Below, piece after piece: positions 3,425 through 30,693 of a stretch of DNA of 33,025 nt. Location: IMG/VR virus record IMGVR_UViG_3300009103_001114, positions 1 to 33,025 of that record, one strand, 5' to 3'. Position numbers and translations under genes: made by a program. Source of the stretch: a virus. Position 1 is the first letter of the stretch. Each line of letters starts with the position of its first letter. A model generated the notes under the pieces. It had not been told where the DNA came from. It did no database searches and saw only the letters and a list, made by a program, of their open reading frames with translations.

Positions 3425-4130
3425 TAGAATACTTCCTCGAATACCTACCTTGTGATGACTTCTCTAAATCATCTCTGGTATCTTGTGCTGCAATCTTTGC
3501 TTTATGTGCAGCATATGCTTTCTTCTGTGCTTCAGTAGGAGGTTTGGGAGGATTATCTTTTGTAATAACAGAATCCTTACCATGCTGTTTTCTAAGATTA
3601 GCAACTACAGTATCAAATGCTTTGTCTTCAAACTGAGGATGACCTTTTATGTTCTCCTCTCCACCATGCTTTTTAGCAAGAGCTTTTTTCTTCTTCTCAT
3701 AATCAGGAGATTTAGTATTGTCATACTTTGCCTTTTCTTCAATTTGAACTTCTTCTTTCTTTACTTTCTCTTTCTTCTTAACTGCCTCTAGTTCTCTCTT
3801 TTTCAAAATAGCATCAACCATTGCTTTATGTTGAGCATCACCTAGTTTAGTAATTTGTACTTCATCAATCTGTTCAACAGATTCTTGCTTAATACCAGGG
3901 AATTTCTTTGCTACTTTAGCACGAACCTTGGCTTTTTCCTCTGGAGTACCATGTTGTGATACTAAACTTAAAGCACTACGAGCATGTTTCTCATCAGGAA
4001 TAGGATAAGAACCAGCTTGCTTTCCTTTTGGACCTTCACCTTTACCAGGTAAAGCAAAATCCTTATCAGGTAGTGCTCTCCTCTGATCGGCACTCAACTT
4101 TGCTTCGTTAAATTGCTTAAATGTTTTCAT
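3408..4130 (-). CDS. Virion-associated protein with capsid-targeting-like N-terminus
   Basis: A 240-residue, Lys/Glu-rich protein. The first residues MKTFKQFNEAK resemble the T4 internal-protein targeting peptide (MKTYQEFIAEA). That suggests entry into the prohead and trimming by the gp21 protease. Residues about 14-75 (the DKDFALPGKGEGPKG and PIPDEKHARSAL regions) resemble a small domain found in several phage head proteins. Further possible gp21 sites are QIDE and QIEE. Overlap with the upstream gene is 4 bases (ATGA). It is probably packaged or head-associated; no enzymatic motif is seen. Confidence 0.75.
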   Translation of the reverse strand: MKTFKQFNEAKLSADQRRALPDKDFALPGKGEGPKGKQAGSYPIPDEKHARSALSLVSQHGTPEEKAKVRAKVAKKFPGIKQESVEQIDEVQITKLGDAQHKAMVDAILKKRELEAVKKKEKVKKEEVQIEEKAKYDNTKSPDYEKKKKALAKKHGGEENIKGHPQFEDKAFDTVVANLRKQHGKDSVITKDNPPKPPTEAQKKAYAAHKAKIAAQDTRDDLEKSSQGRYSRKYSNAGSD

Positions 4131-5128
4131 CTTACGTTAGCAGCATACCATTTTTCAAATTCTTCACGTTTCTTATTACCACGAGGTGGCATTCCACGAG
4201 ATGCTTGTCCAGGAATTGCTTCACGCTTTTTCGCTGCTGCACGTTCCTTCCTTTCACCTTCTTCTGGGTTACGCTGGTAACCTTCAATTTTATATTGAAC
4301 ATTACGCATTTCACCTAGTTCAGTAAGTCTTTCAGCTACACCATACCAAAGTTCCTCTTCTCTTTGTGGATCATAAGAATCCTGAACATGAGCGTGCTTT
4401 ACACTCTTCTTGCCTTCTTTCTCCCTAGTAGATCCCTTAGCATGTTCCCAAGGATGACCTGATTTCTGTGCGTCTCTTGCTCCTCTATCACGTTGCCACT
4501 TAGCATAGTCACGTTCTTTCTTGGCCTGCTTCTTCTTACCGTGCTCAGTATCATAAACGGCATCTTCAGTACCTTTCCGTGCCTTATCATAAGCAATAAC
4601 TGCCTTTACCTGATCAGGAGTATCCTTATCCTTCTCAGAAAGCTCAGTTACCTCAAGTAACTCACCACCTATTTCTTTAACTGCTTCTTTAAAATTAGGA
4701 TTAATAACAACTTTATTATTTACTTTTTTCTCTTTGATCTCCTTTTCTGCCTTTTCTTCTGGCTCATCTACAACTTCAATTAAATCTTTAAGATCCTCTC
4801 TCCAATTAGAAATAGCCTCTTTCTTTACCTTTTTATTGGGTGAACCAAAAAGTTTATCTTTCTTACGCTTCTTCTCTTCAACATCAGCAGGATTTAAAGA
4901 GTTTCCCTCCTTATCATATCCCCAATCCTTATCATCTTTCAAATGATCAGCAGCCTTATAAAGAGGTTTGCCAGTTTTTACATTCTTCTTACCTGCTTTC
5001 AAACCTTGATATGCAGGAGTGTTGCCTTTTTTATCAGCAGCAGTCACAGTATATGCTTCTGTCTGAGCAGTTTCTGCGATCTCATCCATGTAAACTTTGG
5101 AGATATCGATCAGTGGATTGTTAGACAT
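4127..5128 (-). CDS. Charged virion-associated protein
   Basis: A 333-residue, strongly charged protein dominated by Lys, Glu and Asp, with low-complexity stretches and no membrane helix or recognisable enzyme fold. The start MSNNPLIDISKVYMDEIA resembles cyanophage late proteins that I associate with the virion. Several LxE/IxE sequences (DLIE, ELLE, ELSE) would be potential gp21 protease sites, although such short motifs are common in acidic proteins. It ends in an ATGA overlap with the next gene. It starts 7 bases after the upstream stop, with a CCTAAATA string at 5156-5163 inside the end of the upstream gene. Confidence 0.73.
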   Translation of the reverse strand: MSNNPLIDISKVYMDEIAETAQTEAYTVTAADKKGNTPAYQGLKAGKKNVKTGKPLYKAADHLKDDKDWGYDKEGNSLNPADVEEKKRKKDKLFGSPNKKVKKEAISNWREDLKDLIEVVDEPEEKAEKEIKEKKVNNKVVINPNFKEAVKEIGGELLEVTELSEKDKDTPDQVKAVIAYDKARKGTEDAVYDTEHGKKKQAKKERDYAKWQRDRGARDAQKSGHPWEHAKGSTREKEGKKSVKHAHVQDSYDPQREEELWYGVAERLTELGEMRNVQYKIEGYQRNPEEGERKERAAAKKREAIPGQASRGMPPRGNKKREEFEKWYAANVR

Positions 5129-8270: not shown

Positions 8271-8630
8271 TCACTTCTCCAACATATTCTCTTCTTGATC
8301 TCTCTCCTTGGCCATCCTCTTCCTTTCTTTGGCCTTACGTTGCTCCTCTTTCTCTTGCTTTAATTCATCTCTTAATTCTTTCTTTAAATCCTCTTTCTCT
8401 TTTCTTTTTGCTTCTGCTTCCTTTCTTCCTGCCTCAGCCGCTTGTCTCTGATCTTCTCTTTTCTTTCTATCAGCATCAACCTTATCTTTAATAGCAGCTT
8501 GTCTTTCAGAAGCAGCATCTACCGATTGAGTATCTTGTTGCTGAACCCGAGCCATCTGCTCTTGCTTTTTCTTTGCAAGTTCTTGTCGTCTAGATTCTAT
8601 ATCTTCTGAGAATCTACCATACGTTTTCAT
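8271..8630 (-). CDS. Coiled-coil protein with capsid-targeting-like N-terminus
   Basis: A 119-residue protein almost entirely composed of Lys, Arg, Glu, Gln and Ala, predicted to be one long helix or coiled coil. It starts MKTYGRFSEDI, close to the T4 internal-protein targeting peptide MKTYQEFIAEA, with F-S-E as the possible cleavage site. Such a protein could be a scaffold-like or internal head protein. It begins immediately after the upstream stop (TAAAATG) and is the second gene behind the late promoter at 8871-8878. No catalytic motif is present. Confidence 0.75.
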   Translation of the reverse strand: MKTYGRFSEDIESRRQELAKKKQEQMARVQQQDTQSVDAASERQAAIKDKVDADRKKREDQRQAAEAGRKEAEAKRKEKEDLKKELRDELKQEKEEQRKAKERKRMAKERDQEENMLEK

Positions 8631-8631
8631 T

Positions 8632-8835
8632 TTAGCCTTTGAAGTATGTTTTTATAACCTCAATTTGATCATGATAACGTGCGATCTTATCCAACTCGGT
8701 TTGAATTGCTTCAGTGATATCTGAATGCTCTCCAATACCCATTGGATGCTCCAAGTAAACATTAACGTTTGCCTTATGCTTCTCTATTTCACCAGTGGCA
8801 TGTGCTAAGACTGCCTTCAATAATTGTTCTCTCAT
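8632..8835 (-). CDS. Small conserved cyanophage protein, first gene of the late unit
   Basis: A 67-residue helical protein. The segments MREQLLKA, NVNVYLEHPMGIGEHSD and IARYHDQIEVI resemble a small protein that I recall as conserved in T4-like cyanophages, function unknown. I place the start at ATG 8835 because MREQ is the conserved beginning; an in-frame ATG at 8844 would add three residues. It is the first gene after the perfect late promoter at 8871-8878 and after mazG, so it should be late-expressed with a leader of roughly 20-30 bases. Confidence 0.8.
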   Translation of the reverse strand: MREQLLKAVLAHATGEIEKHKANVNVYLEHPMGIGEHSDITEAIQTELDKIARYHDQIEVIKTYFKG

Positions 8836-8870
8836 GTGTAGCATATCGTTAGGACTATGAGACCTAGTGG

Positions 8871-8878
8871 TATTTATA
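8871..8878 (-). promoter_or_regulatory. T4-type late promoter (TATAAATA)
   Basis: A perfect TATAAATA on the minus strand, in the context CTATAAATACC. It overlaps the mazG stop codon and lies 27-35 bases upstream of the next start codons. It marks the switch from the replication unit to the virion-gene unit. In T4, this element is recognised by gp55-containing polymerase activated by gp33 and the gp45 clamp; gene 45 is present in this window. Confidence 0.85.
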
Positions 8879-9281
8879 GATCTCCTTCTGCACGATTCTC
8901 AGAATGATGAACATCAAATTCACCACCAGGATAACGTGCTTTAAGTTTTTCTACATTCATTTCAATAACTTCATCAAATGTAGTATCAAGTGCCATACAA
9001 GCCTGAGCAAGATACCAACAGATATCTCCTAGTTCACGCTTCATATGAAACACATTCTCTTCATTATAAGGTTTTCCCTGAAGAATAATTTTCTTAACCA
9101 CCTCTGTGAATTCTCCAGACTCTGCTGTTAAACCAAAAGCAGCAGTAATTAATTGTGAAACATTACAATCATGCTCCAACTCTAGAGAATTAGTACGTGC
9201 CAGAAGGGCTGCATAGTCAAGACTCTCTTGACTTGTAACTCCTCTAACAAACTCAACATACTTTTCAGTATCAACTGTCAT
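8874..9281 (-). CDS. mazG: MazG-like nucleotide pyrophosphohydrolase
   Basis: A 135-residue all-helical protein. It carries the MazG-family metal-binding pattern: TAESGEFTEVVKKI supplies the ExxE-type site, and ELGDICWYLAQ supplies the second acidic pair (ELGD). The C-terminus KLKARYPGGEFD is typical of cyanophage MazG. The family hydrolyses non-canonical or ordinary (d)NTPs. A role in lowering host ppGpp has been proposed but cyanophage enzymes appear to prefer dNTPs, so the biological substrate is open. It overlaps the upstream small gene by ATGA and is the last gene of the early-type unit. Confidence 0.93.
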   Translation of the reverse strand: MTVDTEKYVEFVRGVTSQESLDYAALLARTNSLELEHDCNVSQLITAAFGLTAESGEFTEVVKKIILQGKPYNEENVFHMKRELGDICWYLAQACMALDTTFDEVIEMNVEKLKARYPGGEFDVHHSENRAEGDL

Positions 9282-9418
9282 ACCTTCTTCTCCTTTACAT
9301 CTGCAGATGATTTGTGTAATTGCTCTAGTGCAGCAACCACCTCAGGTGTTTCCTCCCACTCCCAAACTTGATTATTTTTAGGATTCTTTTTTTCAACTGT
9401 ATAGGTTTTAAGAGTCAT
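9278..9418 (-). CDS. Tiny protein of unknown function
   Basis: A 46-codon frame running from ATG 9418 to TGA 9278. It is joined by ATGA overlaps to the gene before it (9415-9418) and to mazG after it (9278-9281). That double overlap is the main evidence that it is a real gene. The product begins MTLKTYTVEKK and has a WEWEETPEVVAALEQ stretch, then a Lys-rich end. There is no recognisable domain. It may be translated as part of a coupled 41-mazG message. Confidence 0.68.
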   Translation of the reverse strand: MTLKTYTVEKKNPKNNQVWEWEETPEVVAALEQLHKSSADVKEKKV

Positions 9419-18115: not shown

Positions 18116-19009
18116 TTATTTAGTTACCTTTCCAATAACCCCATCCATCTCAATTTCAGGAGGAACTATTAGACAGAACCCAATGCCAAGATTGAATACT
18201 TTTCTCATCTCTTCCTCTTCTATCTCACCTGCCTCCTGAATAACATTAAAGATCTCCGGACGTTCCCAAGAAGTATAATCTACCTCTGCTCTCAGACCTT
18301 CTGGGAGACAACGTGGGAGGTTTTCAGGAATACCACCCCCAGTAATATGTGCCATACCTAGAATAGGTATCTCATCCATCAACTCTTTAACTTGTGGCCA
18401 ATAGATTGTTGTTGGTGTAAGTAACTCTGGATGTTCTTTATAAAAGATCTTATGCCTCCACAACATATCATTAATCAAACTATATCCATTACTATGAAGA
18501 CCACTACTGGGTAGACCAACTATCTTATCTCCTGGTTTAATCAATCTCCCATCTATTATTTCATTCTCTTCTACTATACCAGTACAAAATCCTCCCAAAT
18601 CCATATCATAAGAAAAACGACCATGCTCAGCCGTCTCTCCACCAAGAAGATCCATCTCTGATATTTCACATCCTTTGATGATGCCTTTCATGACCTCATC
18701 CAATCTATCATCCAATGTCTTAACAGAGATATAATCCAGAAAATATAATGGTTTAGCACCACATGTAATCACATCATTGACACACATTGCAACGAGATCT
18801 TGACCTATAGTTGTAAAATCATTAGCAATCCGTGCGATATTAATCTTAGTACCGACACCATCAGCACCAGATACTAAGACAGGTTTCTCATACCCTGATG
18901 GAACAGAAAACATACCATTAAACCCACCAATGGTAGGTGCCTTATCCTTTAATCTTTCTACAAAAGCAATCCCTGCTTCTATATCTACACCAGAAGATTT
19001 ATAATCCAT
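18116..19009 (-). CDS. purM: Phosphoribosylformylglycinamidine cyclo-ligase (AIR synthetase)
   Basis: A 297-residue PurM. It makes aminoimidazole ribotide from FGAM with ATP in de novo purine synthesis. Landmarks are SSGVDIEAG near the start, the Gly/Asp-rich ATP site VSGADGVGTKI, MCVNDVITCGAKP, LLGGETAEH, and GLPSSGLHSNGYSL. It is about 50 residues shorter than bacterial PurM (~345), mainly at the C-terminus. Cyanophage copies can be short, and no catalytic block is obviously lost. It overlaps the halogenase gene upstream by 11 bases. Likely boosts purine supply for phage DNA synthesis. Confidence 0.94.
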   Translation of the reverse strand: MDYKSSGVDIEAGIAFVERLKDKAPTIGGFNGMFSVPSGYEKPVLVSGADGVGTKINIARIANDFTTIGQDLVAMCVNDVITCGAKPLYFLDYISVKTLDDRLDEVMKGIIKGCEISEMDLLGGETAEHGRFSYDMDLGGFCTGIVEENEIIDGRLIKPGDKIVGLPSSGLHSNGYSLINDMLWRHKIFYKEHPELLTPTTIYWPQVKELMDEIPILGMAHITGGGIPENLPRCLPEGLRAEVDYTSWERPEIFNVIQEAGEIEEEEMRKVFNLGIGFCLIVPPEIEMDGVIGKVTK

Positions 19010-20108
19010 TTACATATTTCTCCCACAATTGAATACTTTTGGATCCCCAATGACCATACTCCCTTTTATCATCCCAACTCATAGGAGATTTAAAAATAGA
19101 AATAAAATTAGAATCAGGATTAAAGGGAAGTGATTTAGCATACTCCCAAAAAGGGGTATTGTATATTGATCCACTTTGATAGTGCCACAATATAAATGTT
19201 TCCAATTCTCTCATCTTAACCTGAACATCATGATTACACTTTTCCTTTGACACTCCCTCAAATATATGTTGCCATGCAGCTTGAGCAACATTTAAATAAA
19301 AAGATAATGAAGTTGCTTCCATTGGTTCCAAAAATCCAGCCCTATTGCCATTTAAAATAGTTCTTTCTCCATCAAATATATTCTCAGCCATATAATTTTC
19401 AAACGTAAGATCACCATCAATTTCTGGTATATTAAATCTCTCTAAAAAATCATCAGTAGCTTCCTCTTTAGTTGTTATAGTATTATTATACAAATATCCA
19501 TAGGCAGTTCCTTCAATAGTAGGAATAACAAATGTCCACCCATGAGGTGTAGCAACTGTTTTTGTACAATGTAGAGTAGGATCTCTCCCAGTCTTATCCG
19601 AATAAAGTAATACTGAATTTATAGGGTTAATAAGTTTATTATACTTCTCCTTATCTCTACCGTGCCTACCCCTACAATCAAAAATATAATCAGCATCTAT
19701 TTCTTTCTCAGGATCATCTATTTTCTTTCTTTTAACTTTAGACCTTCCAGATTTAACTACCAAATCTGACAATTTCTGTGGAACAAAATGCATGGCTTGT
19801 CCCGTCAGATAAAAATCATGAAAGAATGGTTTTCCTTTCTTACCCCATCCCTCATACATAATACCACTTTTTAAAGTAGCCCCTAACGGATTATCATAAT
19901 ATCCTCCTGTAGCCCAATTTATACCCAAAGCCTGAGTAATAAGGTACATTGGAATAAACGTAGTTCCTTGACCCACCTTTTCCATAGGATGAGTATCAGG
20001 ACTATGATACATTTCTATCTCAAGTTGTCCCTCTTCACTCCAATAATAATAATGCAATGCAGTCATACACCCCGCATTACCAGATCCAATAATAGCAATT
20101 TTTTTCAT
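18999..20108 (-). CDS. FAD-dependent halogenase, short divergent form
   Basis: A 369-residue flavin halogenase-like protein. The FAD dinucleotide-binding motif GSGNAG is at 8-13. A Lys at 80 in GATLKSGIMYEGW corresponds to the catalytic lysine of tryptophan halogenases. FLEPMEATS (249-257) holds the conserved Glu. The halogenase WxWxIP motif is changed to GWTFVIP (180-186), so the second Trp is Phe. It is about 110 residues shorter than the other halogenase in this window (28578-30023). A cyanophage enzyme of this general type (VirX1 of Syn10) is known to iodinate various substrates. The ATG lies only 6 bases after a TAAAAT -10-like box. The substrate is unknown. Confidence 0.85.
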   Translation of the reverse strand: MKKIAIIGSGNAGCMTALHYYYWSEEGQLEIEMYHSPDTHPMEKVGQGTTFIPMYLITQALGINWATGGYYDNPLGATLKSGIMYEGWGKKGKPFFHDFYLTGQAMHFVPQKLSDLVVKSGRSKVKRKKIDDPEKEIDADYIFDCRGRHGRDKEKYNKLINPINSVLLYSDKTGRDPTLHCTKTVATPHGWTFVIPTIEGTAYGYLYNNTITTKEEATDDFLERFNIPEIDGDLTFENYMAENIFDGERTILNGNRAGFLEPMEATSLSFYLNVAQAAWQHIFEGVSKEKCNHDVQVKMRELETFILWHYQSGSIYNTPFWEYAKSLPFNPDSNFISIFKSPMSWDDKREYGHWGSKSIQLWEKYVNGL

Positions 20109-20750: not shown

Positions 20751-21188
20751 TTAATCAGCATCTTGCGTCTTTCCTTTCTTACCAATATTATACTTCTGTT
20801 CTAAGATCCAATCACCCTTATCTTTATAAGCAAGTACTTTAATTTGATTTAGGGGAGCAATATCAGAAACTGAATCTGGTTTAACTATTGAAATGAGTCC
20901 CCAATCAGCAAGTAAACGAGCAATCCTATTACGTCGTTGTACATCATTAAGTGTGAGATTAGCATGTTTACCATCAAGAGCAAAGAGCTCCTTAAAATGA
21001 ACAATATAATATCTACCTTGCTTATGAAGGATATGACAAGACTGATAGAGTTTTTTCTCTTTCCTCGATGCAACTCCAATTCTTGTAAGTGTTTCACGAA
21101 CCTTTAAAAAATCATCCGGTTCATTAAGAAGAACCTCTACCATTTGGTCTTGCGACCACTTTACTTCAGGTTCTACTGTAGTAGTCAT
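20751..21188 (-). CDS. regA: RegA translational repressor
   Basis: A 145-residue RegA-like protein. In T4, RegA binds start regions of early mRNAs, including its own and those of clamp-loader genes, and blocks translation. Landmarks are DDFLKVRETLTRIGVAS, CHILHKQGRYYIVHFKELFALDG and NDVQRRNRIARLLADWGLI, matching the family order. It is slightly longer than T4 RegA (122), with an acidic N-terminus and a Lys-rich C-terminus. It has an ATGA overlap with gene 62 upstream. The gene is the last of the clamp-loader unit, as in other T4-like phages. Confidence 0.95.
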   Translation of the reverse strand: MTTTVEPEVKWSQDQMVEVLLNEPDDFLKVRETLTRIGVASRKEKKLYQSCHILHKQGRYYIVHFKELFALDGKHANLTLNDVQRRNRIARLLADWGLISIVKPDSVSDIAPLNQIKVLAYKDKGDWILEQKYNIGKKGKTQDAD

Positions 21189-21556
21189 TTCGATCCTCCA
21201 GTTTCAAGTCGTTGTTTAATAAATTCCAGTTGTTGGGTTGATAAGATTTTCAGTGCTTGAGAAGCTTTCTCATTACTATAACCATAGTATTGTTTAACAC
21301 ATTGGAGATCCGTGACTTTTTCCTTACGGAGCCAGGGAGAGAATCTCTTCTTTTTCCTAAGTGTATTTAGATAAAAAGAATATTGCATATCCTTGTCTAG
21401 GTTAGGATACCTATTCATCTCATTAACAAAAAGAATACAATCAAGATGCCCTGAGAGACACCGATTAATAATATAAGGAGAATATTCCTTTATATCTTCT
21501 GATAGATCTTCCTTTGTAAAATTAATAGAATTTAACCAATCCTTTAATTCAGTCAT
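21185..21556 (-). CDS. 62: Clamp loader small subunit, T4 gp62-like
   Basis: A 123-residue gp62 homologue that, with gp44, opens and loads the gp45 clamp. YIINRCLSGHLDCILFVNEMNRYP, MQYSFYLNTLRKKKRFSPW and KQYYGYSNEKASQAL match the cyanophage gp62 pattern. It is shorter than T4 gp62 (187), which is usual for cyanophages. Unusually, its partner gene 44 is not adjacent; about 6 kb of accessory genes lies between. It is bounded by an 8-base overlap with apt and an ATGA overlap with regA. Confidence 0.92.
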   Translation of the reverse strand: MTELKDWLNSINFTKEDLSEDIKEYSPYIINRCLSGHLDCILFVNEMNRYPNLDKDMQYSFYLNTLRKKKRFSPWLRKEKVTDLQCVKQYYGYSNEKASQALKILSTQQLEFIKQRLETGGSK

Positions 21557-22061
21557 AATTAATTAATGATTTAATAGGAACATTAGGAATATTTTGTCTC
21601 CCTTTTAAGAAAGATAATTCTATTATAAACCCACACCCCACCAAATTACCACCCGATCTTTCTATTAAAGATGAAGATGCTTTAACAGTTCCTCCTGTAG
21701 CAAGAAGATCATCAACCAATAATACTTTAGAACCCTTAAAAATATTAGATTGAACCTCTAATTTATCTTGACCATACTCTAAAGTATAATCAACTCCTAT
21801 AACTTTTCCTGGTAACTTACCACCTTTTCTAATTGGAACAAAAGGTATTTTTTCTACTGTAGATAAAGAACTACCAACAATAAATCCTCTAGACTCAATA
21901 CCAGCAATATAATCCGGTTGTAATTCCTCACAAAAAGATCCCAATTGTTTTATTACAAATGTCCAAGCTTCAGGACTTCTCAACAAAGGACATATATCTT
22001 TAAAAAGAATTCCATCTTTTGGAAAATTAGGAATCTCGTCTATGTAATTAGTTAAATTCAT
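21549..22061 (-). CDS. apt: Adenine phosphoribosyltransferase
   Basis: A 170-residue purine salvage enzyme that converts adenine and PRPP to AMP. The 13-residue PRPP motif VLLVDDLLATGGT (113-125) is exact for Apt. IAGIESRGFIVG (52-63) and PIRKGGKLPG (76-85) are the Apt adenine-site and loop sequences, and the N-terminus IPNFPKDGILFKDICPLL is typical. I start at ATG 22061, giving near-normal length (E. coli 183). The longer frame adds 26 hydrophobic residues without homology. It overlaps the nucleosidase gene upstream by 14 bases, suggesting coupled synthesis of two enzymes in one pathway. Confidence 0.94.
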   Translation of the reverse strand: MNLTNYIDEIPNFPKDGILFKDICPLLRSPEAWTFVIKQLGSFCEELQPDYIAGIESRGFIVGSSLSTVEKIPFVPIRKGGKLPGKVIGVDYTLEYGQDKLEVQSNIFKGSKVLLVDDLLATGGTVKASSSLIERSGGNLVGCGFIIELSFLKGRQNIPNVPIKSLINYD

Positions 22062-22566
22062 GATGAAGTAATGTTTGAAAAAGAGTATTGCCTTTATGAA
22101 TATTTTCTTCCCAATCAGAAGCTGAATTTTCATCAGCACTATCAGAAATATATTTAAAGCTTCTAAAATCTATCTCTTGTTTAAGACAGGTTTTAGCAAT
22201 AGCATAAGCTTCCATATCCACAATATCACAATCAATCTCAGGCGTAGATATTGCAAATTTATCTCCTGTCCCACATACAACACCTGGATTACCTATCATT
22301 ATACCACACTCAAAAGGAGTTTGACCAAGTTCACAATTTAATGCTCTAGCATCCATATCCCTATCAACATATCCTGTCACCTCTACTAAACCACTAATAT
22401 CACTTACCGATCCAGCAGATCCAAAATTAATAATAAAATCATACCCATCATTAATTGCTTTCATAGTAGCAATAGTAGCATTGACCTTACCACATCCACT
22501 CAAATAAATGGGATATCCCTCTATCCCTTCTGCTTCCTCTGGAAGAGCAATAACTAATGCAATCAT
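22048..22566 (-). CDS. MTA/SAH nucleosidase-like enzyme (PNP/UDP phosphorylase superfamily)
   Basis: A 172-residue protein aligning by eye with E. coli MtnN: LPEEA (Glu10/11), SGCGKVNA, INFGSAGSV, RDMDA...LGQTP, DMEAYAIAKTC (Met118, Glu119) and ISDSAD (Asp142). The equivalents of the catalytic Glu12, Glu174 and Asp197 of MtnN are present. It would cleave methylthioadenosine or S-adenosylhomocysteine to adenine plus the ribosyl thioether. It is about 60 residues shorter than MtnN, with trimmed loops. Start ATG 22566 gives an ATGA overlap. It is followed directly by apt, which can use the adenine. Futalosine or another nucleoside as substrate cannot be excluded. Confidence 0.86.
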   Translation of the reverse strand: MIALVIALPEEAEGIEGYPIYLSGCGKVNATIATMKAINDGYDFIINFGSAGSVSDISGLVEVTGYVDRDMDARALNCELGQTPFECGIMIGNPGVVCGTGDKFAISTPEIDCDIVDMEAYAIAKTCLKQEIDFRSFKYISDSADENSASDWEENIHKGNTLFQTLLHHEFN

Positions 22567-23201
22567 AATAGTACCCAATTTCCTTCACGTAAATCAGTGG
22601 CAATATCCATTGCAATAGTTATTCTTGGTTTAAATGAATAATGCCTGGTTGTATAATGTGGAATATAAGAAGGAAATATGGTAAGTTGCCCTACACTATT
22701 CTCCTCTTCAATAACATCTGGATCTTGTACAAGATCAAAAGGATTCATATAACAAGTAGATGTGTTATCTGATTGAACAGTAAAATGAGCACTTAAGTAA
22801 CATCTAGAACTAATATCATGCCAATGAACATTTATTTTCTGCCTCCATCGCAGAATATTAACCCAACATCTAGACCAAAGATATTCTGGTGTCTCATTTC
22901 CCAATGCCATATTGTACTCCTTCACATACATTTTAACATACTTTTTTAATAAATTAGTTTCAACAGTATCCCATTCTAACACATTATACTGGGAGAATCT
23001 TGCCGTGGTACTCTTCTTACCAAGACCAGTATATCCATCGGAATATCCCTGAGGTAATTTCTTAATATACTTTTCATTCTCTAAACAAGTCAAAGCTAAT
23101 TTATCAGTCCTTAAAGGAACAGCAGCATACCCAAAAGAAAAATCCCACAAAGGAATATAGGGTGTTTGAGGAGAACTATTAGAAAGCCTTCTTATTCTCA
23201 T
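22563..23201 (-). CDS. 2OG-Fe(II) oxygenase family protein (PF13759-like)
   Basis: A 212-residue protein. The core is WVNILRWRQKINVHWHDISS (metal site His126, His128 and Asp129), YLSAHFTVQ, LTIFPSYIPHYT (distal His182) and KPRITIAMDI (Arg193, 2-oxoglutarate). This is the phage PF13759-like pattern, with the N-terminal 100 residues less conserved. It forms a tandem pair with the oxygenase-like gene upstream (ATGA) and an ATGA overlap with the nucleosidase gene. The substrate is unknown; all candidate catalytic residues are present. Confidence 0.84.
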   Translation of the reverse strand: MRIRRLSNSSPQTPYIPLWDFSFGYAAVPLRTDKLALTCLENEKYIKKLPQGYSDGYTGLGKKSTTARFSQYNVLEWDTVETNLLKKYVKMYVKEYNMALGNETPEYLWSRCWVNILRWRQKINVHWHDISSRCYLSAHFTVQSDNTSTCYMNPFDLVQDPDVIEEENSVGQLTIFPSYIPHYTTRHYSFKPRITIAMDIATDLREGNWVLL

Positions 23202-23701
23202 ATAAAATTATATTTAAATTTATATCCATTTACCAATACTTTTTTTGAAGTAGATTCTTCAGCTCCATGAACAACATGGGAAGGATACATAAGAAGTTTA
23301 TTTTTCTCAGGGGAAACATATTGTCGTTTACCATCAACAATAAAAAAGGTGGCTCCGTCATTAGAATCATTCAAATAAAGCAATGATGAATAATCTTCAG
23401 CATGTATATGATTATGCAATCCCATTTTACCACCTTTTGTATAATCTAACATATGAATATAATTATACAATAACGAATAAGATACAACCTCTTCTACTTT
23501 ATTTTTAATTCTCTCCGCATAAGTAAAAAATTCATTATCCATAAGAGGTAATAAATTTATAGTTCCAAAATATTCCCCATACATCACATTACTTTTACTA
23601 TAAAACTTTTTATGAGCTGAATAATACTTTAACTTTTTTAAGAAAAAGTTAGTAATATCATCATCTACATAAGCAGTTTGAACTAAATCAGTCCAAGACA
23701 C
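23198..23701 (-). CDS. 2OG-Fe(II) oxygenase-like protein, atypical active site
   Basis: A 167-residue protein of the phage 2OG-oxygenase fold: a helical N-terminal half, then LHNHIHAEDYSSLLYLND, ATFFIVDGKR, LLMYPSHVVHG and KKVLVNGYKF. The metal site is within HNHIHAED (His98/His100, Asp103) plus His145. The residue normally Arg for 2-oxoglutarate binding appears to be Lys (153/154). I start at GTG 23701, preceded by the purine-rich GAGGAAGAAG; a TTG at 23725 would add eight residues. No ATG exists nearby. It may be active with altered cosubstrate binding or be non-catalytic. It ends in an ATGA overlap. Confidence 0.76.
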   Translation of the reverse strand: MSWTDLVQTAYVDDDITNFFLKKLKYYSAHKKFYSKSNVMYGEYFGTINLLPLMDNEFFTYAERIKNKVEEVVSYSLLYNYIHMLDYTKGGKMGLHNHIHAEDYSSLLYLNDSNDGATFFIVDGKRQYVSPEKNKLLMYPSHVVHGAEESTSKKVLVNGYKFKYNFI

Positions 23702-23801
23702 AATCTTCTTCCTCTTCTTCCTCAAAAGGAGAAGTGTCTATAATACCTGCATTATACAAACATTCATCCAAGAACATTTGTGCTCTTTCATCTTCAGTCA
23801 T
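23688..23801 (-). CDS. Tiny acidic protein of unknown function
   Basis: A 37-codon frame from ATG 23801 to TGA 23688. It begins in an ATGA overlap with the glycosyltransferase-like gene and overlaps the following oxygenase gene by 14 bases. The product MTEDERAQMFLDECLYNAG ends in a run of six Glu, which arises from the same purine-rich DNA that serves as ribosome-binding site of the next gene. It is probably translated; function is unknown, and it may mainly couple translation. Confidence 0.55.
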   Translation of the reverse strand: MTEDERAQMFLDECLYNAGIIDTSPFEEEEEEDCVLD

Positions 23802-24664
23802 AGTACATGATAAGGATCTATATCCTCACTAACTTCATCTACATCTCTACGTAAATTAGTAAACCTTTCATCAGATTCTGCCATGATCTGTTCACCCTTG
23901 GTCGTGTAATGTATCACAATAGGATTAAAGAACTCCTCATGCTTCTCCTCAATATATCCCTGTGTGACATCTTGAGCACCAAAAAGACCTCCATCTGTAC
24001 CCATCCTACTCAGGATAATCCATAATGCATATTCATCTACTATCCTAGGATTGGGAACTGGATAAGGCATCTTCCCATCCTTTAACTTAAACATTAACTC
24101 AACCAGTTCACCCAGACGATCTATAATATCAAGATGAACCCCCTTATTGAATAACATTACCCCAGTACAATATTTGTAGATGTGTCCCTTACCACCTGCT
24201 TCCTCTATACACTGATCAACATAATCTAATGCTTTTCTTATATTCTTTCCTCCTCCTATATTAGGATCGTGTCGGAATCCAAACTCTTCTCTACCAAACA
24301 CCTCTCTATAATTATAATGATCAAAAAGATATTGAACATCCCCATAGAATACAGTATCAGAATCTAAGTATAAAATATTTGCATCATCAAACTCTCCATC
24401 TTTCTTATCAAAGAACTTAAAATTAAACCATTTATAAATGAATAACATCCCATGACTATACTGTTTTTCAAAAGGTAAAACATTTACATTATGGTGAGTG
24501 CGGAAATAAAGGGGAACAATAGCAGGGTCATCGCAAAAAAGATAAACAGGTATTTCATTATTAAACTCCCTAAGTGAACTAATACTATGATCTAGGCGCT
24601 TCATTTCATGATCATTTATATGATCATTTCTATTCTTTTTATATGAATAAAAAACTACATTCAT
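23798..24664 (-). CDS. Glycosyltransferase-like protein with DxD motif
   Basis: A 288-residue protein with a GT-A-like layout. The N-terminus has NVVFYSYKKN and VYLFCDDP strands, then ILYLDSDTVFYGD with the metal-binding Asp101-Ser-Asp103. Further on are KYCTGVMLFNKG (acceptor-side strand) and IVIHYTTKGE with the His typical of GT8-like enzymes. Sugar donor and acceptor are unknown; possible targets are DNA, virion proteins or host surface glycans. It overlaps the Dam-type methylase by ATGA. The family call rests on motif order only. Confidence 0.75.
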   Translation of the reverse strand: MNVVFYSYKKNRNDHINDHEMKRLDHSISSLREFNNEIPVYLFCDDPAIVPLYFRTHHNVNVLPFEKQYSHGMLFIYKWFNFKFFDKKDGEFDDANILYLDSDTVFYGDVQYLFDHYNYREVFGREEFGFRHDPNIGGGKNIRKALDYVDQCIEEAGGKGHIYKYCTGVMLFNKGVHLDIIDRLGELVELMFKLKDGKMPYPVPNPRIVDEYALWIILSRMGTDGGLFGAQDVTQGYIEEKHEEFFNPIVIHYTTKGEQIMAESDERFTNLRRDVDEVSEDIDPYHVL

Positions 24665-25536
24665 GCCAATGCCAACTCCAATGGAGTTTCTGGTACTATA
24701 GAATAGTTAGTCACCAACAACTCCGTCTTTATATTTTCTGTGGTTCCTTTATCTCCACGATGAGCCATAGAATACCTTAACTTCCATTCCTTAAGATTAT
24801 AACCACTATAAAGTTCTTTAAGACGATCATTAACATTATATGTAATCATAAACTTATGAATACAGTTATATACATCATTAGCAAATCTTTCATGATCAAA
24901 TGATTTATGCATCTCTCTATTCTTTCCATAAAGAAAATCTTTTATATCATAAGGAGGATCTAAAAATATAAATGTATTAGAAGAACCATGAGACTTCATT
25001 AACTCTGAATAATCAAGATTAGTAATCTTCCAATCCTTAATTAACCGAGAAAACTTTGCTAATTTATCTGCTCCTACTAAAGAAAAATTAGAATTAGATG
25101 CTGTTTGGGAAAAAGTACTATTCTCGGTTAATCCAGAATAACTACACTTATTCATGATGAAAAATGCTACTGCTTTTTCAAAATCATCATAAGTATCAAT
25201 CTCTTCCTTATACTTATTAAACAACTCTTTTGCCTTAGCAGTTACTTTATCATTCTCACCTTCATCTAACGTCCTCTGCTTCTCTTCTCGGACCCTCTCA
25301 GAGAGTTCTTCACCCCTATCTCTTAGCTGTATCCAAAAGTTATAAAGGGGAACATATAAATCATTAATCCAAACAGGAACATCTGGATTAGATTTTGTAA
25401 AATCAATTGCAAGTGATCCACCCCCAATAAAAGGTTCTCTATATTCACTAATTACTTGAGGAAACCAAGGAGAAAGAGTCTTAATAGCTTTAGATTTTCC
25501 CCCAGGATATCTTAATGGGGTCTTCAATGCTTTCAT
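24661..25536 (-). CDS. DNA adenine N6-methyltransferase, Dam/D12 class
   Basis: A 291-residue Dam-type enzyme transferring methyl from SAM to adenine N6. TPLRYPGGKSKA at the start and EPFIGGGS (34-41) form the SAM pocket, and DPPY (193-196) is the catalytic motif. FFIMNKCSYSGL and the C-terminal TELLVTNY are also typical of the D12 class. The recognition site (GATC is common) cannot be read from sequence. ATG 25536 gives an ATGA overlap with the upstream gene; a TTG at 25542 would add two residues. It produces SAH, which the nucleosidase encoded downstream in the same unit could remove. Confidence 0.93.
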   Translation of the reverse strand: MKALKTPLRYPGGKSKAIKTLSPWFPQVISEYREPFIGGGSLAIDFTKSNPDVPVWINDLYVPLYNFWIQLRDRGEELSERVREEKQRTLDEGENDKVTAKAKELFNKYKEEIDTYDDFEKAVAFFIMNKCSYSGLTENSTFSQTASNSNFSLVGADKLAKFSRLIKDWKITNLDYSELMKSHGSSNTFIFLDPPYDIKDFLYGKNREMHKSFDHERFANDVYNCIHKFMITYNVNDRLKELYSGYNLKEWKLRYSMAHRGDKGTTENIKTELLVTNYSIVPETPLELALA

Positions 25537-25730
25537 CACCAATCAGGATAATAAGATATTTTAGAAATATATTCGTATATTAAACTCCATCCAAACTCAA
25601 AAGTATTACCCCTCTCATCCTGAAGATAAAAAGGGATATCAGGATGCATCATCTTTGCTCTATAATAATGAGCAACTACATTACAATCGTCATCAATATG
25701 ACGTTCTTTTTCTAATTCCTGTTCAGTCAT
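25536..25730 (-). CDS. Small protein of unknown function
   Basis: A 64-residue acidic protein, starting at ATG 25730 in an ATGA overlap and ending in another with the Dam gene. It contains DDDCNVVAHYYRAKMMHPDIPFY followed by an aromatic C-terminus (SLIYEYISKISYYPDW). There is no membrane segment or known domain. Tight coupling on both sides supports it as a real gene. Function cannot be assigned. Confidence 0.72.
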   Translation of the reverse strand: MTEQELEKERHIDDDCNVVAHYYRAKMMHPDIPFYLQDERGNTFEFGWSLIYEYISKISYYPDW

Positions 25731-26362: not shown

Positions 26363-26630
26363 TCTTGGCATTTTTTATATCATATTCTATCACAATTTTC
26401 TTAGATACTCTACCCATTGAATCTAATGTACTGGATTCACTCCACTCCCCCTTTAATAAAGCTGCCATTACATTCTTATCTAAACCACAAAGATTCTCAC
26501 AATTTTCAACAGACTTGCGAACTGATTCTAAACCATCAGGATAGTTCCTAATCTTAAACCCGTGCTTATCTAACTCATTACCTTCCTCATCATACTGTCT
26601 ATCTTTGATGTCTGATTGAAATTCACTCAT
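26355..26630 (-). CDS. Small protein of unknown function
   Basis: A 91-residue acidic protein with an ATGA overlap behind pyrE. It contains [23 protein letters not shown], two Cys (NCENLCGLD), and a C-terminal strand [13 protein letters not shown]. There is no membrane segment, signal peptide or recognised domain. It is translated in the pyrE unit to judge by the overlap; its role there is unknown. Confidence 0.72.
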
Positions 26631-27169
26631 AATTTTAATTTAGAATTTAACATCTCTTCCAAAGTAAATAAAGATTTTAATTCCAGTCCTACTTCTTTCA
26701 TTGCTTCTTCCCCACCTTCCTGCCTGTCTATAATAGCCACAACTCGTTCTACCACATAACCAGCATCCCGTAGTTTTTCTGCTGCTTTAATGGCAGATCC
26801 ACCAGTCGTTACTACATCTTCCAATACTGTTATTTTAGTTCCTTCTGTTGGTAATGGACCCTCTATCCATGCACCTGTTCCATGTCCCTTTGGTTCTTTA
26901 CGTACAATCAATGCATCAATAAGAGTTTTATCTAATGCAGATACTACCGAAACACCACTCACAAGAGGATCAGCACCCAAAGTAAGTCCTGCTACTACTT
27001 GAGTATCAATATGTTCTAACATCAATAAACTAGCAAGAGTAAGTCCCCTCCCATTTAGTGTCACTGGTTTACAATTCACGTAATGTTCACTTGTCTTACC
27101 TGACGAAAGAGTAAATTCCCCTTTCTTATACGCATCTCTCTTTAAGAGATAAAGAAGTTCGTCTCTCAT
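26627..27169 (-). CDS. pyrE: Orotate phosphoribosyltransferase
   Basis: A 180-residue enzyme that makes OMP from orotate and PRPP in pyrimidine synthesis. The catalytic loop motif RKEPKGHG (90-97) and the PRPP motif [12 protein letters not shown] (115-126) are diagnostic. [14 protein letters not shown] near the start and [10 protein letters not shown] are also typical. The usual DD of the PRPP motif is ED here, an allowed variant. Length is close to stand-alone bacterial PyrE (~210) but trimmed. It starts directly after the HNH gene stop (TAAATG). Confidence 0.93.
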
Positions 27170-27640: not shown

Positions 27641-28581
27641 TTGAATTCACACTCCACCATAAGTTCAGTTAGACAAGCAAGCATATTTATTTCCTGATCC
27701 GCCACAAATGCACACTGGTATTGATACTTAGCAAGAATAAGGACAGCAGCAGGAATGGTAGAAGGGACGAGGGATTCGTAAAGAGCATTATACACACGAC
27801 GCAAAAGTACAGCAGGATCATTATCCAAGTTATCGACACACCATTTACGTACTTCCGGAAAGTTCTTTTCTTTGAGATTTTTAATGAGATCATTTGTATT
27901 TACATCAGCAAAAGTTGCAAGAATACCAGCATCTATCTTTCCTCCCACCGAGTATCTTTGACACTCATTGAGAATGCGACGCCAATCGGGGAAGTGCTTG
28001 TTAATGAGTTCGAGGAGGACTTTCTTATCACTTTGAATCCGTTCGGTGTCCAAGATCCCGTTAAGTCTTCCGAAAAATTCTGATTGGAGATATGGCTTAT
28101 CTTTTCCTCTGACTCCAAATTCAACGACGGCACATCTGGAATGGAGGGGCTCGATGATTTTATTTTTGTAGTTGCAGGTGAAAATAAATCTACAGTTGTT
28201 TGAAAATTCCTCGATAGATGCTCTAAGTAAGAGCTGGACATCGGGGGTTGTATTGTCTGCCTCGTCGATGATGATGACTTTATGTCTACTGTCAGACGAG
28301 AGGGAAACTGTTGAGGCAAAGTTTTTGGCGTTGTTCCTAACGGTGTCGAGGAACCGTCCTTCATCGGATCCGTTGATAACATAAACATCTACTCCTAATT
28401 GATTACATAAGGCTTTTGCTACTGTAGTCTTACCACATCCTGCAGGACCAGCAAGCAAAAGATTAGGGACTTCACCATGCTTTAAAAAATCAAGAAATGT
28501 CTTCTTGGTTGATTCTGGTAGAATACAATCTTCAATTGTCTTGGGTCGATACTTTTCCACCCAAAGAAATTCATCTCTCAT
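27637..28581 (-). CDS. 44: Clamp loader ATPase subunit, T4 gp44-like
   Basis: A 314-residue AAA+ ATPase. Walker A is GPAGCGKT (45-52), Walker B with DEAD is IIIDEAD (103-109), and SRC (148-150) contains the arginine finger typical of sliding-clamp loaders. The C-terminal collar domain is helical. With gp62 it loads the gp45 clamp. Length matches T4 gp44 (319). It has an ATGA overlap with the halogenase gene upstream and with the HNH gene downstream. Confidence 0.96.
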   Translation of the reverse strand: MRDEFLWVEKYRPKTIEDCILPESTKKTFLDFLKHGEVPNLLLAGPAGCGKTTVAKALCNQLGVDVYVINGSDEGRFLDTVRNNAKNFASTVSLSSDSRHKVIIIDEADNTTPDVQLLLRASIEEFSNNCRFIFTCNYKNKIIEPLHSRCAVVEFGVRGKDKPYLQSEFFGRLNGILDTERIQSDKKVLLELINKHFPDWRRILNECQRYSVGGKIDAGILATFADVNTNDLIKNLKEKNFPEVRKWCVDNLDNDPAVLLRRVYNALYESLVPSTIPAAVLILAKYQYQCAFVADQEINMLACLTELMVECEFK

Positions 28582-30023
28582 AATAAACCAAAACTCTTAA
28601 TAATAGTTTTGTGTGAAACAAATGGCAAATATTTGTAATCACGATCAAACCATTGTAGCATATCAATTACCTGATCTGAAAAGGAAGACATTTCATACTC
28701 TGCTTTAATGGCATCTACATCAAACCATTTAAGTCCATGTAAAATAGGAATGTAATTATTAGCATGAAATAATACCCAAGAACTATCAATGTCTGAGTTA
28801 TGAGGCATTCTATGCTTCCACATATCAAGATTATACTGCAATGAATCTGGAATCTTCAAGTTATTTTTAATCTCTTTCCAAAAAGGAGTATCCTCCTTAG
28901 TAGTAAGATAATGTGCAACAATATAATCAACTATATTGTCATAAATTCCCACTACAATCTCATTATACCTTATATAATCATTTGAGGGAAGCATTGCAGC
29001 CAAAGCAAATACCTGTTGAATACTACTCCCAATAGAAGTTGCTTCTAAAGGCTCAACAAAATTACTAGAAAGACCTATAGCACAACAATTTTTATCCCAA
29101 AATTTTTCTAATCTTCCTGCTTCAAATTTAAAATGTTTAGCATCTCTAATCTTCTGCCCTACATATTTTTCCATCTCCCTATGTGCTTCTCTTTGTGAAA
29201 TAAAATCATCAGAATACACATACCCATTACCAGTCTTTTCCTGTACCGGAATAGTCCATCCCCATCCAGCACTATGAGCAGTTGCTTTAGTCCATAAATT
29301 ATATTCCTCCATCTCTTTAGTCTGAAAAGCCATGGCAGAATTTAAAGGAAGATAATCACTATATGATTTCCACTTAACTCCCAATTTTTTTTGAAGTATT
29401 AACCTACTAAACCCACTACAATCAATATAAAAATCTGAGTAATAATTATTTCTTGTACCACAAAGATATTTGATACTACCGTCATCCTTTAGAAAAATAT
29501 TTTTAATATCATCAACACGAATTTTAATATTTCTCTCAATACATTTCTTATGTAACCATTTATTTAACTTAAAAGTATCAAAATGAAATTGCCGAGTGGG
29601 AGTATTATTAAGATTATTATAAAAAGATAAAGGAGTTTTATTATGCCACATCCAACGTGGATTTAAATCTTTAGGATGATGTTGATTAGCAACTAAATGA
29701 GAATAAACATAATAATAACCTTTATAATTGGAATCAAAAATATCAATTATCGAATGTAAAAAGGGATTATCATCCCATCCCTCAAACATGACCCCCATCT
29801 TAAAGGTGGCACCACACTCACGTATTACCTCAAAGTGATTAAAATCACAATAAGAAATAAAATCATCCCATTGTTCAGTTGACCCCTCACCAACTCCCAC
29901 AATACCAATATTCTCAGATTCAACAATCTCAATATTACATTGTGGGAATCTTTTCTTTAATATAAGTGCCGATACACACCCAGCTGTGCCACCGCCAACT
30001 ACCGTAATGGTATTAATTTTCAT
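28578..30023 (-). CDS. FAD-dependent tryptophan halogenase-like enzyme
   Basis: A 481-residue flavin halogenase. The FAD motif GGGTAG is at 10-15. The probable catalytic Lys75 lies in GATFKMGVMFEGW. The diagnostic GWGWTIP is intact at 253-259, and FVEPLEATS (322-330) holds the conserved Glu. The family chlorinates, brominates or iodinates aromatic rings using FADH2 from a separate reductase, which I do not see here. Start ATG 30023, four bases after the clamp stop; an upstream TTG is unlikely. It sits between clamp and clamp-loader genes. The substrate is unknown. It differs strongly from the shorter halogenase at 18999-20108. Confidence 0.93.
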   Translation of the reverse strand: MKINTITVVGGGTAGCVSALILKKRFPQCNIEIVESENIGIVGVGEGSTEQWDDFISYCDFNHFEVIRECGATFKMGVMFEGWDDNPFLHSIIDIFDSNYKGYYYVYSHLVANQHHPKDLNPRWMWHNKTPLSFYNNLNNTPTRQFHFDTFKLNKWLHKKCIERNIKIRVDDIKNIFLKDDGSIKYLCGTRNNYYSDFYIDCSGFSRLILQKKLGVKWKSYSDYLPLNSAMAFQTKEMEEYNLWTKATAHSAGWGWTIPVQEKTGNGYVYSDDFISQREAHREMEKYVGQKIRDAKHFKFEAGRLEKFWDKNCCAIGLSSNFVEPLEATSIGSSIQQVFALAAMLPSNDYIRYNEIVVGIYDNIVDYIVAHYLTTKEDTPFWKEIKNNLKIPDSLQYNLDMWKHRMPHNSDIDSSWVLFHANNYIPILHGLKWFDVDAIKAEYEMSSFSDQVIDMLQWFDRDYKYLPFVSHKTIIKSFGLL

Positions 30024-30027
30024 TCCA

Positions 30028-30693
30028 TCATCCAAAAGTGGAATCTGGTTCTAATGCAATGTAATAAGTAAGATCATGATTCTTACAAGTGAATCTGGAT
30101 AAAAGTTTCTGAGATACAACAACATCATAAGTTCCTGGAAGAACCTTAATATTTTCTACTTTGAAATTAAAGCAGAATTCATTCTCAGTCTCACCAACAA
30201 CAATCGCAAAATCATTTGAAGTATCATTCTTCTTGTCCCGCACAAGAACCTTAACTACACCATCTTTACCAACTACAGATAAATCAGGCAGTTGATAAAT
30301 GGATGCTGCCTTAAGCAATTTATCCAATTGATCTGTACTTAGATCAAAAGTAGCATCTTCACTTGGAAGAGTAATTGGCTTCTCTGGAGGTGTAATAATT
30401 ACATTAGGATCAGCAAAGAAATAATTAGAACGAGATCTTCCTTCTCTAATAACCACATGACCTTCATTCTGAAAATCAAGTTCAGGATCATGATGAAGAC
30501 CCATCCCATTAAGAAATTGTCCTAAATCATAGATTCCAAAATCTTGAGGAAACTCTTCTTCAACTGTTGCTTCAGCAAGAATATTCTTCATCACACTAAT
30601 AGTACGAAGCCTATTCCCTTGCTTAAAAAGAATTGATTGATTAATAGTCGAAAAGTTTTTGAGTAAAGAGAGAGTTTTGTCAGAAAGTTTCAT
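30028..30693 (-). CDS. 45: Sliding clamp, T4 gp45-like
   Basis: A 221-residue processivity clamp. From MKLSDKTLSLLKNFSTINQSI it aligns with the T4 gp45 N-terminus, and FGIYDLGQFL, FADPNVIITPPEKPI and YYIALEPDST match later strands. The ring tethers DNA polymerase and, in T4, activates late transcription. I start at ATG 30693 because T4 gp45 starts at the same residue; the frame is open upstream to a GTG at 30726, which would add 11 residues and enlarge the overlap. T4 gp45 is 228 residues. It is followed closely by the halogenase. Confidence 0.95.
   Translation of the reverse strand: MKLSDKTLSLLKNFSTINQSILFKQGNRLRTISVMKNILAEATVEEEFPQDFGIYDLGQFLNGMGLHHDPELDFQNEGHVVIREGRSRSNYFFADPNVIITPPEKPITLPSEDATFDLSTDQLDKLLKAASIYQLPDLSVVGKDGVVKVLVRDKKNDTSNDFAIVVGETENEFCFNFKVENIKVLPGTYDVVVSQKLLSRFTCKNHDLTYYIALEPDSTFG

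Follow-up and report, generated by a model that had tools for sequence, protein, structure and literature searches.

A predicted adenine-recovery pair of a short nucleosidase and an adenine phosphoribosyltransferase in uncultured T4-like relatives of cyanophages

The stretch of DNA analyzed here (the window) is a 33,025-base IMG/VR virus record, IMGVR_UViG_3300009103_001114, in which a gene for a short nucleosidase (nuc) and a gene for an adenine phosphoribosyltransferase (apt) lie side by side. The present analysis indicates that the two products probably recover adenine in two steps, and that this gene pair is found in some uncultured T4-like relatives of cyanophages. In such a pathway, the nucleosidase would irreversibly hydrolyze 5'-deoxy-5'-substituted adenosines derived from S-adenosylmethionine (SAM) to adenine and a 5-substituted ribose, and Apt would then combine the adenine with phosphoribosyl pyrophosphate (PRPP) to form AMP, which would enter the phage nucleotide pool. 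The candidate substrates are 5'-methylthioadenosine (MTA), which arises in aminopropyl transfer; 5'-deoxyadenosine, a product of radical-SAM enzymes; and some S-adenosylhomocysteine (SAH) from methylation. The selected benefit could be relief of inhibition, recovery of purine, or both. If the proposal is correct, some marine phages recover adenine from the by-products of SAM, which adds a purine-salvage route to the known nucleotide-biosynthesis genes of phages.

The nuc product matches PF01048 with 51.5 bits (cut-off 25.1), and its best NCBIfam model is PRK05634, with 79.8 bits over 158 residues, under the cut-off of 129. All PDB sequence matches are MTA/SAH nucleosidases (MTANs) or futalosine/aminodeoxyfutalosine hydrolases. 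Likewise, all 50 listed PDB matches of the fold model in Foldseek (E 4.9e-9, TMq 0.71) are MTANs or futalosine hydrolases; the model has a mean pLDDT of 76 and is weak at residues 66-109. The residues E11, M118, E119, and D142 do not vary among the 141 homologues compared (62 from phages, 79 cellular) and correspond to the catalytic Glu12, Met173-Glu174, and Asp197 in E. coli MtnN numbering. The C-terminal residues were aligned by HMMER to solved MTANs, while the equivalence of E11 and Glu12, which lies outside that alignment, is based on motif and position. The pocket Pro and the stacking Phe hardly vary in these same sequences, a single phage sequence departing at the Phe. The 5'-pocket positions, on the other hand, are altered in this subfamily, with Cys or Phe at the Tyr107 position and Leu at that of Phe105. 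The MTAN-type sequence and fold matches, together with the invariant catalytic residues, make it very likely that the product is an adenine-releasing hydrolase.

The identity of the partner is clear from its families. The apt product exceeds the cut-offs of both TIGR01090 (196.1 bits, cut-off 185.85) and NF002636 (210.1 bits, cut-off 125), carries the PF00156 domain, and can be aligned over its full length with Apts of solved structure (phmmer 2.8e-43). The alignment with the solved structures also locates the PRPP-binding loop VLLVDDLLATGGT (DDLLATGGT). The enzyme is thus an adenine phosphoribosyltransferase, its preference for adenine being predicted from the family.

The coupling of the two genes is supported by their distribution in viruses, where nuc was found in 63 IMG/VR loci and apt in 26. 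For the background we used 80 listed loci chosen by regA alone, 47 of which contain a complete gp44-gp62 interval; the contigs are mostly short, and the co-occurrence statistics ignore kinship. About 8 of the 25 apt-bearing phage contigs also carry nuc, compared to none of the 80 regA-anchored loci, which contain neither nuc nor apt (p about 3e-6, computed with 8/24), and the two genes therefore co-occur far above background. In 21 of the 63 loci nuc lies ahead of gp62, with apt between the two in 6 (7 counting the window). It is found between the gp43 polymerase gene and uvsX in 26 others, several with an adjoining fatty-acid desaturase gene, and in the remaining 16, which belong to other phages, it adjoins nrdAB or lies close to a peptide deformylase gene. 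The apt loci are typically ordered dam-apt-gp62, many of them without an adjoining nuc. C48C1 is the only one of the cultured phages to carry both, in the order nrdA-nrdB-apt-nuc and with the last two genes overlapping. A locus listed as Acinetobacter phage MD-2021a (CAKLQH020000009, L067) was set aside as a phage relative, since the genes around nuc (ileS, ribF, and ssu/sulfonate genes) indicate a bacterial chromosome.

The same pairing is observed in bacteria. In a species-genome scan for the nuc family (80 loci, with 43 genomes taken into the gene-content counts), apt is the commonest immediate neighbor of nuc, adjoining it in 15 loci and lying one gene away in one more. Such pairs are spread over SAR116, Pelagibacteraceae, and gamma-, beta-, and other Proteobacteria. 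In 19 of the 43 genomes no PF01048 locus other than the short nucleosidase is seen, and apt adjoins nuc in 13 of these versus 2 of the 24 others (p=6e-5). Absences in these counts are soft, as some of the assemblies, from single cells or metagenomes, are incomplete. This repeated bacterial pairing suggests a substrate class for the short nucleosidase family PRK05634, which carries no substrate assignment.

With respect to the substrate, SAH hydrolase (AhcY) scores over its cut-off in 38 of the 43 nuc-bearing bacterial genomes. Since these bacteria mostly have another enzyme for SAH, MTA and/or 5'-deoxyadenosine appear likelier substrates of the nucleosidase than SAH. A review (PMC6302742) covers the spermidine pathway as a source of MTA as well as the activity of MtnN toward 5'-deoxyadenosine. 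The bacterial neighborhoods contain further SAM-linked genes, namely a homocysteine S-methyltransferase gene (L179), a radical SAM gene beside apt (L216), and, in Pelagibacteraceae (L185), a divergent apt followed by nuc and a SpeD-SpeE fusion. The SpeD-SpeE reaction yields MTA. SpeD was considered as a universal source of MTA and rejected, because only 10 of the 43 genomes have it; spermidine-derived MTA cannot then be the general substrate, and 5'-deoxyadenosine is as likely as MTA. In the phages, speD is present in 5 of the 9 nuc-bearing records tested and lies three genes upstream of nuc in one of them (L053). In one locus from marine Alphaproteobacteria (L180, 2328-5519), nuc follows genes for a PfkB kinase, an IolB/KduI isomerase, and a class II aldolase. 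Disposal of 5-deoxyribose or methylthioribose requires these three classes of enzyme, a kinase, an isomerase, and an aldolase, and the set may represent such a disposal route or, alternatively, part of an inositol operon.

A number of observations weigh against the proposed adenine recovery. The nucleosidase scores below all curated MTAN cut-offs (38.3 versus 73.8 bits for TIGR01704, 52 versus 169 for PRK05584, and 46.2 versus 152.2 for TIGR01705). With 172 residues compared to about 230, it lacks a helix-sized segment of the classical MTANs, located between the GQTP and GD-x-F motifs, and the position of E. coli Arg193 is occupied by K138, a Lys that is invariant in the 141 homologues. The low count of SpeD in the bacteria is a further such point, as are the 15 viral loci in which nuc directly abuts gp62 without apt and a 210-kb record (L035) that has nuc and no detectable apt. 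Moreover, a host Apt might make the phage enzyme redundant. In favor of the proposal are the adjacency of nuc and apt in the window and six relatives, its reversed form beside nrdAB in C48C1, and the 15 of 80 bacterial loci. The preliminary description of this DNA had raised the question of whether the two genes are always adjacent, and they are not; in its terms, their occurring independently in relatives would speak against a module, and this is indeed seen in part, while the co-occurrence still stands well above background.

That description also saw the pair as part of a larger unit, in which the DNA adenine methyltransferase Dam makes SAH, the nucleosidase removes it and so lifts product inhibition, and Apt recycles the adenine. 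All three genes are indeed present, intact, on the minus strand and with matches to the expected families, they belong to one co-directional run of the window, and MTAN-type enzymes typically act on both MTA and SAH. The three also recur together in the gp44-gp62 interval of two relatives (dam-nuc-apt in L017, and dam-glycosyltransferase-nuc-apt in L007), dam and apt do so in many, and dam is marginally enriched with apt (10/11 versus 25/47, p=0.037). However, dam is present in 25 of the 47 complete intervals (53%) in any case and shows no significant enrichment beside nuc (8/11, p=0.32). In cultured cyanophages, dam is present in more than 400 records with neither nuc nor apt, and four nuc-bearing records of 37-92 kb contain no PF02086 match. 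In C48C1 a distance of 42 kb separates dam from the pair, among the genes directly flanking the bacterial pairs no dam was observed, and most bacteria with this nucleosidase can handle SAH by AhcY. After these distribution tests dam was rejected as a specific partner; it is most likely a gene commonly found in the interval, from which Dam could still contribute some SAH, and the three-gene unit is rather unlikely. Recovery of adenine by nuc and Apt is thus retained from the earlier proposal, on the basis of the adjacency, the invariant residues, and the fold, while its Dam-centered part is corrected by these results. As a separate observation, dam and a DruA-like gene (PF14236, of the Druantia DruA family) exclude each other in the regA-anchored intervals (L098-L177), with 25 of the 47 having dam only, 15 the DruA-like gene only, 7 neither, and none both (Fisher p about 2e-7, kinship ignored). 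Three nuc-bearing loci (L012, L028, and L041) have the DruA-like gene and no dam.

We have also considered that the adjacency reflects neutral accretion, the gp44-gp62 and gp43-uvsX intervals being insertion hot spots that gather nucleotide genes, such that nuc and apt are neighbors merely since both were gained there. Such a scenario is consistent with the variety of genes found in the gp44-gp62 interval (dam, DruA-like, pyrE, purC, gcvP, glycosyltransferase, oxygenase, and HNH genes) and with the 26 nuc loci at the unrelated gp43-uvsX site. We consider it unlikely, as the adjacency recurs in reverse order at another site in C48C1 and in diverse bacteria without such a hot spot. Another alternative is that the nucleosidase acts on something other than by-products of SAM, for example on deoxyadenosine released as host DNA is degraded, on a modified nucleoside, or on a defense signal based on adenine, with Apt recycling the base. 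The compact and divergent character of the subfamily, its altered 5'-pocket, the Lys in place of Arg193, and the low MTAN scores would all fit with this. However, the adenine-binding and catalytic positions match those of MTAN, the bacterial neighbors include SAM-linked genes, and the nucleosidase has no match to any PADLOC model, so that this alternative seems very unlikely. A defense role as such was rejected, the Apt having given only a weak partial phosphoribosyltransferase match to these models.

The adenine-recovery pair can be compared with several known systems. The bacterial MtnN/Pfs enzymes (TIGR01704, PRK05584) share with the window nucleosidase the PF01048 fold, the catalytic Glu, Met-Glu, and Asp, and the GQ-x-P segment, in addition to the fold matches, and differ in the features given above. 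The closest family is the bacterial PRK05634 "nucleosidase" (185 residues), which has the same length and is repeatedly found next to apt; the phage sequences, apart from scoring below its cut-off, form a separate clade in the tree. The bacterial apt-nuc pairs (SAR116, LSUCC0096, Rickettsiales, Polynucleobacter, and Pelagibacteraceae) place the same two families side by side, with overlaps of 8-11 bases in SAR116 (L189, L190) and Rickettsiales (L217). Their order is apt-nuc or divergent, whereas that of the window is nuc-apt, embedded in a clamp-loader run. In C48C1 (OQ984149, Kyanoviridae), for which no paper was found, both genes are annotated as hypothetical proteins, and the identities to the window proteins are about 40% (nuc) and 32% (apt).

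Earlier work on Lake Baikal phages (PMC7678222) suggested a role in the SAM cycle for a phage MTA/SAH nucleosidase. The methylotroph phage VP_139 described there has such a gene together with methyltransferases, purM, and a ribonucleotide reductase, but differs in having a methionine adenosyltransferase and no described apt partner. Cyanophages are also known to carry speD (PMC2984593), which acts on SAM and, unlike nuc, makes the precursor of MTA, spermidine synthesis yielding MTA itself. In the cultured cyanophages searched here, C48C1 is the only one with a gene for MTA disposal. No phage nuc-apt pair was found in the open literature searched, subscription papers and preprints being mostly outside the search. 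Within that search, the view that no such phage module had been described holds for the pair, and not for the phage nucleosidase in the SAM cycle.

A tentative extension of the adenine-recovery proposal is that wild cyanophages carry a dedicated salvage pair for MTA and 5'-deoxyadenosine, which might give a host without PF01048 enzymes a new irreversible route. It would remove inhibitors arising from polyamine synthesis (including that by phage SpeD) and from radical-SAM enzymes and recover adenine for phage DNA. Synechococcus elongatus is the only one of the control genomes to show no PF01048 match, and it gave a candidate Apt match. If this is so, the need to dispose of SAM by-products would restrict phage growth in the nutrient-poor ocean generally, a constraint that has been overlooked.

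For both proteins trees were built by a quick procedure, and their support is moderate. In the nuc tree the viral sequences other than the long-branched C48C1 and L065 form one supported clade, which lies, in an unresolved placement, near marine SAR116, LSUCC0096, and Dehalococcoidia sequences, most of them linked to apt. The viral Apt clade is likewise supported and lies beside Apts of SAR116, LSUCC0096, and Dehalococcoidia, 4 of 5 of which are nuc-linked. Given the quality of the trees, descent of the pair from a single marine bacterial donor is only suggestive.

The clamp-loader gene of the window shares 86% identity with its counterpart in a marine single-cell virus and ~82% with the one in Prochlorococcus phage P-SSM2. 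By these identities, the window is a T4-like (Kyanoviridae-type) fragment of an uncultured ocean virus related to cyanophages, and its host would, by this relationship, be of cyanobacterial type. The minus-strand order is gp44, HNH, pyrE, small ORFs, dam, a glycosyltransferase-like gene, two 2-oxoglutarate-Fe(II) (2OG-Fe(II)) oxygenase genes, nuc, apt, gp62, regA, hsp20, a halogenase-like gene, and purM (Table 1), three genes thus separating dam from nuc. Adjoining genes from dam to regA overlap by 4, 4, 4, 14, 8, and 4 bases, with a single 72-base gap at 23726-23797, which makes one transcription unit plausible; the number of promoter-like sites in it is not above that of shuffled sequence. 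The start codon of nuc is the ATG at 22566, within the ATGA overlap with the upstream oxygenase gene, and that of apt is the ATG at 22061, within the 3' end of nuc. By eye, no ribosome-binding site is seen upstream of the latter, which would fit translational coupling of apt to nuc. The 14-base overlap between them, which had been taken as a sign of joint function, is exact. It was nevertheless rejected as conserved evidence, because the boundary varies in relatives, where the two genes range from lying 2 bases apart to overlapping by 4, and joint function is supported by the recurrent adjacency instead.

Table 1. Features of the window around the nuc-apt pair
Feature	Position	Strand	Basis
nuc, short (172 aa) MTA/SAH-nucleosidase-like, PF01048 (NP-I) superfamily	22048..22566	-	Pfam, NCBIfam, PDB sequence and fold matches, residue invariance
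apt, adenine phosphoribosyltransferase, 170 aa	21549..22061	-	TIGR01090, NF002636, phmmer to solved Apt, PRPP loop
nuc/apt overlap, 14 bases	22048..22061	-	direct sequence reading
dam, D12-class N6-adenine DNA methyltransferase	24661..25542	-	PF02086, phrog_56; TIGR00571 slightly below cut-off
Glycosyltransferase-like protein (by eye), between dam and nuc	23798..24664	-	ORF list
2OG-Fe(II) oxygenase-like	23198..23725	-	PF13640, slightly below cut-off
2OG-Fe(II) oxygenase	22563..23201	-	PF13759; 4-base ATGA overlap with nuc
gp62 clamp-loader subunit, immediately downstream of apt	21185..21556	-	PF16790, phrog_225
RegA translational repressor	20751..21188	-	phrog_242
pyrE, orotate phosphoribosyltransferase, a further nucleotide gene of gp44-gp62 interval	26627..27169	-	TIGR00336 150 bits (cut-off 106.8)
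purM, phosphoribosylaminoimidazole synthetase	18116..19009	-	PF00586/PF02769, phrog_1207

The dam product scores 110.5 bits with PF02086 (cut-off 22) and 105.7 bits with TIGR00571 (cut-off 114.85), matches phrog_56 with an E-value of 9e-80, and contains the DPPY motif (FLDPPYD). The glycosyltransferase-like ORF gave no matches among Pfam, PHROG, and NCBIfam. The presence of purM and pyrE nearby, and of purC, gcvP, mazG, and nrdAB in the neighborhoods of relatives, is in line with AMP feeding the nucleotide pool.

Some of these neighbors deserve mention in their own right. The gene for GcvP (glycine cleavage P-protein, PF02347) is found in the T4-like phages L032, L034-L038, and L041, being full length in L035 (495-3272); it often lies just upstream of nuc and may provide one-carbon units for purine and thymidylate synthesis. 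L041 contains two different gp62-regA pairs (3912-4720 and 8519-9339) with the glycine decarboxylase gene and nuc between them, which represents either a true duplication or a chimeric assembly. The phage purC (SAICAR synthetase, PF01259) is immediately upstream of apt in L086-L088 and ahead of gp44 in L017 (4212-4916). Finally, the window holds two tryptophan-halogenase-like genes, at 18999-20108 (the one for which PF04820 was tested) and 28578-30035, and several 2OG-Fe(II) oxygenase-like genes, as judged by eye.

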